Below the pieces are notes generated by a model. The model searched no databases. It was not told the origin of the DNA and was given only the letters and a program-made list of their open reading frames with translations. Both the position numbers and the translations under genes were made by a program. DNA of 64,000 nucleotides from Ferrovibrio sp. GTDB taxonomy: Bacteria > Pseudomonadota > Alphaproteobacteria > Ferrovibrionales > Ferrovibrionaceae. This document shows, one piece after another, positions 31,684-34,027 of this stretch (position 1 is the stretch's first letter; each line of letters begins with the position of its first letter). Location: assembly GCF_002796975.1 (NCBI RefSeq), contig NZ_PEKV01000004.1:201597-265596 (forward strand), in the 5' to 3' direction.

Positions 31684-31747
31684 CGTCGTTCCCGCGAAGG
31701 CGGGAACCCAGTGGGTGGACTGGATCCCCGCTTTCGCGGGGATGACG
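31684..31747. repeat. REP-like inverted pair E
   Basis: Left arm CGTCGTTCCCGCGAAGGCGG.. ending CCCAG; right arm CTGGATCCCCGCTTTCGCGG.. ending ATGACG, separated by eight bases. The arms are imperfect inverts of each other and the same type as the pair at 23950, with CCCGC-GAA-GCGGG cores. Confidence 0.85.
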
Positions 31748-31760
31748 AGAAGATAAAGAA

Positions 31761-31809: not shown

Positions 31810-32079
31810 TTACAGCCGGCCCTTCAGTGCGGTCGACGCCTTGAAGCGTACCGACTTGCTGGCTGCGATCTTGATCGCTTCGCCGGTCTGCGGATTGCGG
31901 CCCTTGCGCGCGGCGCGTTTGGAAACCTTGAAGGTGCCGAAGCCGACGATGGTGAAGCTGCCTTCCTTCTTCAGCGCTTTCGCCATCGCCTCGAACACCG
32001 CATCGACCGCCTCGCCCGACGCAGCCTTGGTGGCGCCGGTGGTTTCGCGCACGATTTCGATCAGATCAGCCTTGTTCAT
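31810..32079 (-). CDS. hup: HU-family DNA-binding protein
   Basis: Nucleoid protein of 89 residues that bends DNA as a dimer. Full HU pattern: MNKADLIEIVRE, GFGTFKVSKRAARKGRNPQTGE for the DNA-gripping arm, and AASKSVRFKASTALK at the end. The GRNPQTGE arm tip is intact. GGAGGGG stands close upstream of the ATG. HU rather than IHF is favoured by the arm sequence and length. Single gene with its own terminator. Confidence 0.95.
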   Translation of the reverse strand: MNKADLIEIVRETTGATKAASGEAVDAVFEAMAKALKKEGSFTIVGFGTFKVSKRAARKGRNPQTGEAIKIAASKSVRFKASTALKGRL

Positions 32080-32239: not shown

Positions 32240-32253
32240 TTGATCGAGATCAA
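32240..32253 (+). promoter_or_regulatory. FNR/FixK-type binding site
   Basis: TTGATCGAGATCAA is a perfect TTGAT-N4-ATCAA palindrome, the site of FNR/FixK/Anr-type regulators. Its centre lies 41.5 bases before a start point placed by a TAGACT -10 box (32276-32281), the exact class II activator geometry. The next gene is the 35-residue protein at 32317. Confidence 0.8.
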
Positions 32254-32275
32254 GGTTGCGCGACAGAGAGCGATT

Positions 32276-32281
32276 TAGACT
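32276..32281 (+). promoter_or_regulatory. -10 box of the FNR-type class II promoter
   Basis: TAGACT matches TATAAT at four of six positions and sits where a class II FNR site centred at 32246.5 requires. No -35 box is needed in this promoter class. Transcription would begin near 32288, giving a leader of about 29 bases with GGAG. Confidence 0.6.
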
Positions 32282-32316
32282 TCAGGGAGTATCCGGCGAC
32301 AAACACGGAGTCTCCC

Positions 32317-32424
32317 ATGCCGCTCGCACAAGCCCTGTTCCTGGTCGCCGTAATCGGCGCCTTCATCCTGTTCGGCGTGACACTGGCCTTCTGCCGCGCG
32401 ACGTCGAAAGACCTGCCGAAGTAA
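32317..32424 (+). CDS. 35-residue single-pass membrane microprotein
   Basis: Seen in the track only as the end of a longer ORF. The protein is MPLAQALFLVAVIGAFILFG followed by VTLAFCRATSKDLPK: one membrane helix with a short basic tail. GGAG lies eight bases before the ATG, and an FNR/FixK-type promoter is correctly spaced upstream, which argues strongly that this is a gene expressed under low oxygen. Small proteins of this kind often join respiratory or stress complexes; no partner is encoded next to it. It ends three bases before the converging hutH end. Confidence 0.72.
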   Translation: MPLAQALFLVAVIGAFILFGVTLAFCRATSKDLPK

Positions 32425-32427
32425 CGC

Positions 32428-33954
32428 TCAGTACAGCAGCGCAGCGGGCAGCAGGCGGCGCAACTCGCCCGACCGCACCAAAGCCTTGGCTGCAGCCAGA
32501 TCGGGCGCGAGATAGCGATCCTGCGCCATGAACGACACCTGAGCCCGCAGCAGCGCCTGCGCCGCCAGCAGTTTGTCGGAGGTCACCAGCGGCGCGCGCA
32601 GATCCACGCCCTGCGCGGCACAAAGCCATTCGACCGCAACGATGCCGGCGGCATTCTCGGCCATGGCCAGCAGGCGATAGCCGGCATGCGCCGCCATCGA
32701 GACATGATCCTCCTGATTGGCCGAAGTCGGGATCGTATCGATGCTGGCCGGATGGGCACGCTGCTTATTCTCGGAGGCCAGCGCCGCCGCCGTCACCTGC
32801 GCGATCATGAAACCGGAATTGATGCCAGGATCTGGGGCGAGGAAAGCAGGCAGCCCACTGAGCACCGGATCGACCAGCAGCGAGATGCGGCGCTCCGAGA
32901 TATTGCCGGTCTCGGCCAACGCGATCGCGATCATGTCGGCGGCAAAGGCCACCGGTTCGGCATGGAAGTTGCCGCCCGACAGAATCGCACCGTCGTCGAA
33001 CACCAGCGGATTATCGGAAACACCGTTGGATTCGATCCCCAGCGTAACGGCCACATTGCGCAGCATATCCAGCACCGCGCCCATCACCTGCGGCTGGCAG
33101 CGCAGGCAATACGGATCCTGCACGCGTTCGTCGCCCTGGCGGTGCGAGGCGCGGATCGCCGAACCTTCCAGCAGATGCAGCAGCAGATCGGCCACCGCGA
33201 TCTGGCCGGGCTGACCGCGCGCGGCATGGATGCGGGGATCGAAGGGCGTGTCGCTGCCGGCGGCGGCATCGGTGCTGAGCGCACCGCAAACCAGCGCTGC
33301 CGCGATCACGTCTTCCGTGGCAAACAATCCGGCCAGCGCGAGCGCGGTGGAAACCTGTGTGCCGTTGAGCAGGGCCAGGCCTTCCTTGGCGCCGAGCGTG
33401 AGCGGCGCAAGGCCGGCCTGCTTCAGGCCGTCGAGGGCGCACATCTCCACGCCGCCGATGCGCACACTGCCCTCGCCGAGCAGCGGCAGCACCAGATGTG
33501 CCAGCGGCGCCAGATCGCCCGAAGCGCCGACCGACCCTTGCGCTGGAATGCAGGGCAGCACATCGGCATTCAGCAATGCCTGCAGCGCGGCAATGGTGGT
33601 CCACTGCACGCCGGAGAAGCCCTGCGCGAGGCTGTTGATCTTGAGCAGCAGGATCAGGCGCACCACGGCATCGGGCAGCAGCGGCCCGGTGCCGACCGCA
33701 TGACTGAGCACCAGCCGGCGCTGCAGTTCCGCCACCTGATCGGGCGGAATGCGCACCTTGGCGAGTTTGCCGAAACCGGTATTGATGCCGTAGACCGGCG
33801 CATCGCCGGCAGCCGCGGCTGCCACCAGCGCGGCGGATTTATCCACAGCCGGGCGTACTGCCGCCGGTTCCAGGGTCACAGTCATCCGGCCGCCGCGATA
33901 CAGCGCGGCGATCTCTGACAGCGACAGTTTCCCGGGCAGCAATCGGCAGGACAT
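32428..33954 (-). CDS. hutH: Histidine ammonia-lyase
   Basis: Deaminates histidine to urocanate, 508 residues. The MIO prosthetic group forms from the Ala-Ser-Gly in [22 protein letters not shown] supplies the catalytic tyrosine region. The selectivity pair is Ser-His (LVLSHAVG), as in histidine lyases and unlike tyrosine or phenylalanine lyases. The start at 33954 follows AGGAG. No hutU, hutI, hutG or hutC gene lies in the window, so this is an isolated copy. It is divergent from an ABC-transporter operon, with a GntR/HutC-like dyad between. Confidence 0.93.
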
Positions 33955-34027
33955 GGATGCACTCCTGTCGTCTATGGGCCTGTTTTCTGGGCAGTTCGAT
34001 CCTAGCACGGTACGGCGGCGAACTTCA

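Follow-up and report, generated by a model that had tools for sequence, protein, structure and literature searches.

In Pseudomonas stutzeri, the cbb3 cytochrome c oxidase contains a 36-residue subunit, CcoM (NCBIfam NF041600; PDB entry 5djq, chain N), which is described in a review as a single-transmembrane subunit of cbb3 in some Pseudomonas species, required for the stability of the complex and dispensable for its activity (PMC8267372). The cbb3 system includes two further small proteins with one membrane pass, CcoQ/FixQ (PF05545) and CcoS/FixS (PF03597), which are regulated by low oxygen, and the bd-type oxidases have the single-pass subunits CydX and CioY, with 34–40 residues (PMC11955535), so that the one-helix oxidase microprotein is a real kind of protein. 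A reconstruction of the core regulon of FNR/FixK in the Alphaproteobacteria lists uspA, the cco genes, fixK, fixJ, a CBS protein and a P-type ATPase, as well as anonymous hypothetical proteins with the IDs 2810, 3532, 5478 and 2905 (PMC2908626). In this study, a stretch of 64,000 nucleotides of Ferrovibrio sp. DNA (the window) was analysed around a gene for a 35-residue protein, which belongs to a family of small single-pass proteins predicted to be under the same type of control. As with CcoQ/FixQ and CcoS/FixS, the proteins of this family are small, span the membrane once and appear to be regulated by low oxygen; unlike fixQ and fixS, which are located in cco operons and are present as separate genes in the same genome, and unlike cydX and cioY, which follow cydAB and cioAB, the microprotein gene lies elsewhere.

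The microprotein gene and its promoter

The window contains a single perfect match to TTGAT-N4-ATCAA, which is the operator listed first in Table 1. A sequence-only reading of this DNA had described a perfect FNR-family box, a TAGACT hexamer, a GGAG and an ATG in front of a 35-residue ORF, and every one of these elements was confirmed, its coordinate of 32240 being the first base of the box. With the transcription start at 32288, which we infer, the centre of the box falls at −41.5. A canonical σ70 −35/−10 pair was searched for at this promoter and none was found, which agrees with a class II promoter that depends on an activator. The ORF does stand between the HU and hutH genes, as had been stated; however, these neighbours are kept in only five genomes, those of the closest subgroup (HU also adjoins the gene in G001, G004, G005 and G008), and the position of the gene is therefore not a conserved feature. 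The convergent stop codons of the microprotein gene and hutH (32422–32430) are 3 nt apart, and no intrinsic terminator was found between them, so that the two transcripts may overlap. Elsewhere in the window, the facing palindromes TTCCCGCGAAGGCGGGAACCCAG and GGATCCCCGCTTTCGCGGGGATGACGA (31684–31752), downstream of a dienelactone hydrolase gene, look like a REP-type extragenic element.

Table 1. Features of the microprotein locus (window coordinates) and of the regulator locus in the same genome
Feature	Position	Strand	Remarks
FNR/FixK-type operator TTGATCGAGATCAA	32240..32253	.	10/10 match; conserved upstream of homologues
−10-like hexamer TAGACT	32276..32281	+	−12 to −7 if +1 = 32288; A and T at offsets 37 and 41 from the box start conserved in 45 aligned promoters
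Predicted 5′ leader, putative start site	32288..32316	+	From sequence; contains GGAG 32307–32310
Microprotein gene, 35 residues, MPLAQALFLVAVIGAFILFGVTLAFCRATSKDLPK	32317..32424	+	ATG 32317, stop 32422–32424
HU-family DNA-binding protein gene, divergent neighbour (context only)	31810..32079	−	PF00216
Histidine ammonia-lyase gene (hutH), convergent neighbour (context only)	32428..34008	−	PF00221; 3 nt from the ORF stop
FNR/FixK-type regulator gene and two divergent uspA genes sharing one perfect box	L152 7321–10311 (G000:C2:32320–35310)

The 4.23 Mb genome has four perfect TTGAT-N4-ATCAA sites, compared with none for the reversed control pattern. The second of them is located between two divergent uspA (universal-stress-protein) genes, beside a gene for a predicted FNR/FixK-type regulator (L152:7321–8052), so that the genome encodes a putative cognate regulator of the operator. 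This protein has a C-x2-C-x7-C motif close to the N-terminus and a recognition helix with E-TVSR, and its best NCBIfam matches are FnrL (159 bits) and FixK (150 bits), both below the equivalog cut-off of 300. The third perfect box lies within an rpoH-like sigma-factor gene, and the fourth (L154 6694, equal to G000:C35:26693) separates a copper-type P-ATPase gene from a small membrane ORF, and these two form another candidate oxygen-regulated pair. The genome also encodes ccoNO, fixQ (ccoQ) and fixS. Although cco operons are usually FNR targets, no upstream box reaching 8/10 was seen for ccoN here (ccoNO region, L153 7357–10100).

Extent of the family and conservation of the operator

A search of 61 relatives found a homologue in all nine genomes of the same genus, each with an upstream box of at least 9/10. 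A first profile, built from ten homologues and applied without use of the box, found members in other families, and a second profile search extended the set further, so that the family is present in about 18 alphaproteobacterial families. The profile hits at E values of 0.001–0.01 (G026, G148, G360, G260 and G286) proved to be short ORFs whose boxes are perfect or nearly so. Weak matches inside long ORFs of other genes (L016–L019, L021–L026, L041, L042, L044–L047, L049 and L050) had neither a short ORF nor a box and were rejected, as were seven non-alphaproteobacterial hits and one hit in a Rhodobacteraceae MAG from a box-selected pattern scan, which had no transmembrane segment and were attributed to chance. 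Outside the Alphaproteobacteria, no convincing match was obtained among the sampled members of the phylum. Searches of Pfam, NCBIfam and the PDB with the family gave no matching family, and no description of it was found in the open full-text literature; it is best regarded as a new, previously unrecognised family whose members are small membrane proteins regulated by oxygen, with a gene plan like that of ccoM. The anonymous hypothetical proteins of the reconstructed regulon may or may not be members.

The operator was analysed in 38 members found by the protein profile alone, with near-duplicates removed, by searching within 250 nt upstream. A box of at least 8/10 was present in 31 of the 38, compared with 8.1% in composition-matched shuffles of the same stretches; the corresponding values were 27 and 0.67% for a box of at least 9/10, and 18 and 0.009% for a perfect box such as that found here. 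The operator is thus located upstream of the gene more often than expected by chance. The sequence-only reading had proposed a search for homologues with a conserved upstream TTGAT-N4-ATCAA and had named beforehand a lack of conservation of the ORF or the box as refuting; the opposite was found, both being conserved. Of the seven members that lack a box close by, two belong to same-strand gene runs whose first gene is preceded by one: the G351 member follows a CBS-domain gene (TTGATCTGGGTCAA, 9/10, at −915) and the G382 member a DoxX-like gene (TTGACGCAAGTCAA, 8/10, at −566). When 45 promoters were aligned on the box (including loci from the box-selected pattern scan, which were excluded from the box counts), the positions that stood out as conserved downstream, beyond the flank of the box, were an A at offset 37 and a T at offset 41 from the box start; this A-N3-T pair occurs at this offset in 27 of the 45 promoters and at any other offset in at most seven. 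These positions correspond to −11 and −7 of a −10 element with the box at −41.5, which is the class II geometry. The proposal of class II control of a real microprotein gene by FNR/FixK is strongly supported by the conservation of the ORF, the box and the box-to-−10 spacing throughout the class.

The members mostly have 29–67 residues and consist of an initial methionine, three or four polar residues (often Asp or Glu), one hydrophobic helix and a short basic tail. The helix carries the pattern [FY]L at positions 8–9, F at 19 and LA[FWY] at 23–25. Over 52 members, only four Lys/Arg residues occur within the first six positions, compared with 148 after residue 25, and this skew towards the C-terminal part predicts an N-out/C-in topology. 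An AlphaFold2 model of the 35-residue protein shows a single helix from residue 3 to residue 30 with a pLDDT of 91, a value which carries weak information for a single helix. The shortness of the ORF might suggest that it has arisen by chance or that the transcript is a non-coding RNA, as might the dN/dS of the five closest congeners, which stays under 1 in all but one of the ten pairs, but only moderately so. However, the protein profile finds homologues throughout the class independently of the box, the start codon, ribosome-binding site and transmembrane segment are conserved, and the changes among these congeners are concentrated at third codon positions (88, 80 and 136 at the first, second and third positions, respectively), which makes this explanation exceedingly improbable. 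The family and its FNR/FixK promoter are almost certainly real.

Comparison with CcoM and association with oxidases

For comparison, eleven gammaproteobacterial ccoM genes were retrieved. As in the alphaproteobacterial family, most of them are lone genes with an FNR/ANR box of 8–10/10 about 80 nt before the ATG; they have a TAATCT-like −10 element within 1–2 nt of the offset observed in the family, followed by a GGAGG, and their products of 36–53 residues have a single transmembrane segment, an acidic N-terminal end and a basic C-terminal end, as do the members of the family. Several ccoM genes (L159, L160 and L161, among L155–L163) have a second, weaker box around 50 nt further upstream. With about 36 residues, a single predicted transmembrane segment and a lone gene that is predicted to be FNR-driven, the microprotein is built like CcoM as judged from its gene plan, whereas identity with CcoM is unsupported by the sequences. 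Against the CcoM model NF041600, the best of the 52 members, which was collinear with the model and the sole member to reach it, scored 16.2 bits, and none of the 52 reached the cut-off of 40 bits. A profile comparison of the family with CcoM gave a score of 21.1 (P = 4e-4); this similarity does not exceed the null for transmembrane composition, since 19 of 150 CcoM profiles whose helix columns had been scrambled scored as high, and the FixQ profile scored higher (22.3). The similarity was therefore rejected as proof of kinship with CcoM. The Pfam models of FixQ, FixS and CydX also gave no match among the 52 members, one of which touches FixQ with an E value of 0.028. The family further differs from CcoM in that it also occurs without cbb3, and CcoM was found within the sample only in non-alphaproteobacterial genomes.

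Co-occurrence was counted over 387 genomes of the class with 40 accepted members, as raw counts which ignore phylogeny, genome size and missed short genes. On this basis, ccoO is present in 30 of the 40 member genomes compared with 140 of the 347 others (Fisher p = 3.6e-5), and the corresponding p value for CydA is 0.03. ccoO was absent from ten of the member genomes, and both ccoO and CydA were absent from six (G046, G089, G132, G205, G307 and G368), so that an obligate subunit of cbb3 or bd across the family was rejected. Such genomes would be better fitted by the main alternative, a general membrane-stress or energy-saving microprotein that is induced at low oxygen and slows metabolism by changing the bilayer or by reducing part of the proton-motive force, without a dedicated respiratory partner; its model is YohP of Escherichia coli, a small single-pass protein which lowers the membrane potential (PMC12719787). 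The tolerance of the helix to sequence change and the frequent pairing with uspA, an energy-starvation gene, agree with this explanation, but the conservation of a pattern beyond hydrophobicity, comprising the acidic or polar N-terminal end and the helix positions given above, suggests a specific contact, and we regard a YohP-like function as unlikely. The members in genomes with neither oxidase would also fit a role as subunit-like partner of one of the core respiratory complexes that all these bacteria possess (cytochrome bc1, aa3 oxidase or a supercomplex), with remodelling of that complex at low oxygen. Structures of such complexes are available for some alphaproteobacteria, and the family matches no chain in the PDB, which counts against this possibility and leaves it distinctly improbable. 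Somewhat less improbable, although still doubtful, is that the family is a class-wide accessory subunit tied not to cbb3 or bd but to a complex shared by almost all of these bacteria, with FNR/FixK remodelling a core respiratory complex at low oxygen through the addition of a one-helix subunit.

The family shares both its operator and its neighbours with the FNR/FixK core regulon. fixL and fixJ are directly downstream in G300 and fixL also adjoins the gene in G232; fixK is upstream in G145 and tail-to-tail with the gene in G021; fixK, a response regulator, uspA and a DoxX-like gene are neighbours in G382, fnrL and uspA in G405, uspA in G105 and G205, and a CBS-domain gene in G351 (FixJ and FnrL were identified above the NCBIfam cut-offs, and FixL and FixK by best match). 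ccoO is found at a distance of 5–10 kb in G405, G021 and G351; the gene is usually outside cco or cyd clusters. The proximity to fixL, fixJ and fixK in several families, as well as to the DoxX-like and CBS-domain genes, could indicate a membrane protein that regulates some other low-oxygen protein or serves as its adaptor, for instance for a transporter, a neighbour of the DoxX or CBS type or the signalling branch of FixL/FixK, and not for a respiratory complex. However, the neighbours vary and most copies stand alone, and the clustering of regulon members is already accounted for by their common control through FNR/FixK; this alternative, the next to be considered, also has a low probability. 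The suggestion of the sequence-only reading that the protein could be an unrecognised accessory oxidase subunit is thus upheld in part: the association with fixLJ, fixK, fnr and uspA, the enrichment of cbb3 and the ccoM-like plan favour it, whereas the failure of the CcoM homology in the scrambled control and the members without cbb3 or bd do not.

Proposed function

The reading preferred here, with a probability of roughly 0.45, is that the protein is induced by FNR/FixK and acts as an accessory microprotein of the respiratory chain at low oxygen, with a CcoM-like plan. As oxygen falls, the FNR/FixK-type regulator would activate the microprotein's own class II promoter, and the product would be a single-pass inner-membrane microprotein with a periplasmic N-terminus and a short basic cytoplasmic C-terminus. 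Its helix would most likely bind laterally to a membrane complex of the respiratory chain that is made or remodelled at low oxygen, and this binding may help the assembly or stability of the complex, as CcoM does for the cbb3 oxidase of Pseudomonas and CioY and CydX do for bd-type oxidases. The gene, its family, the operator and the −10 geometry, the presence of an FNR/FixK-type regulator in the genome and the topology bias are read from the sequences, whereas activation by this regulator, the start site and, above all, the partner complex are what we infer from the DNA. Because the genome encodes ccoNOQ and fixS, its cbb3 oxidase would be the first candidate partner, and an oxidase as the partner is a tentative assignment to which we give slightly less than even odds.

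In conclusion, this study describes a gene which is predicted to be under FNR/FixK-type control in many alphaproteobacterial families, often beside fixK or uspA, and which had neither a name nor a family model because it is only about 30–60 codons long. The regulons of FNR and FixK have been mapped for decades. If the microprotein is a subunit of an oxidase or of another respiratory complex, the structures and assembly models of these enzymes lack a component; a more general role would instead make it a new output of oxygen sensing.
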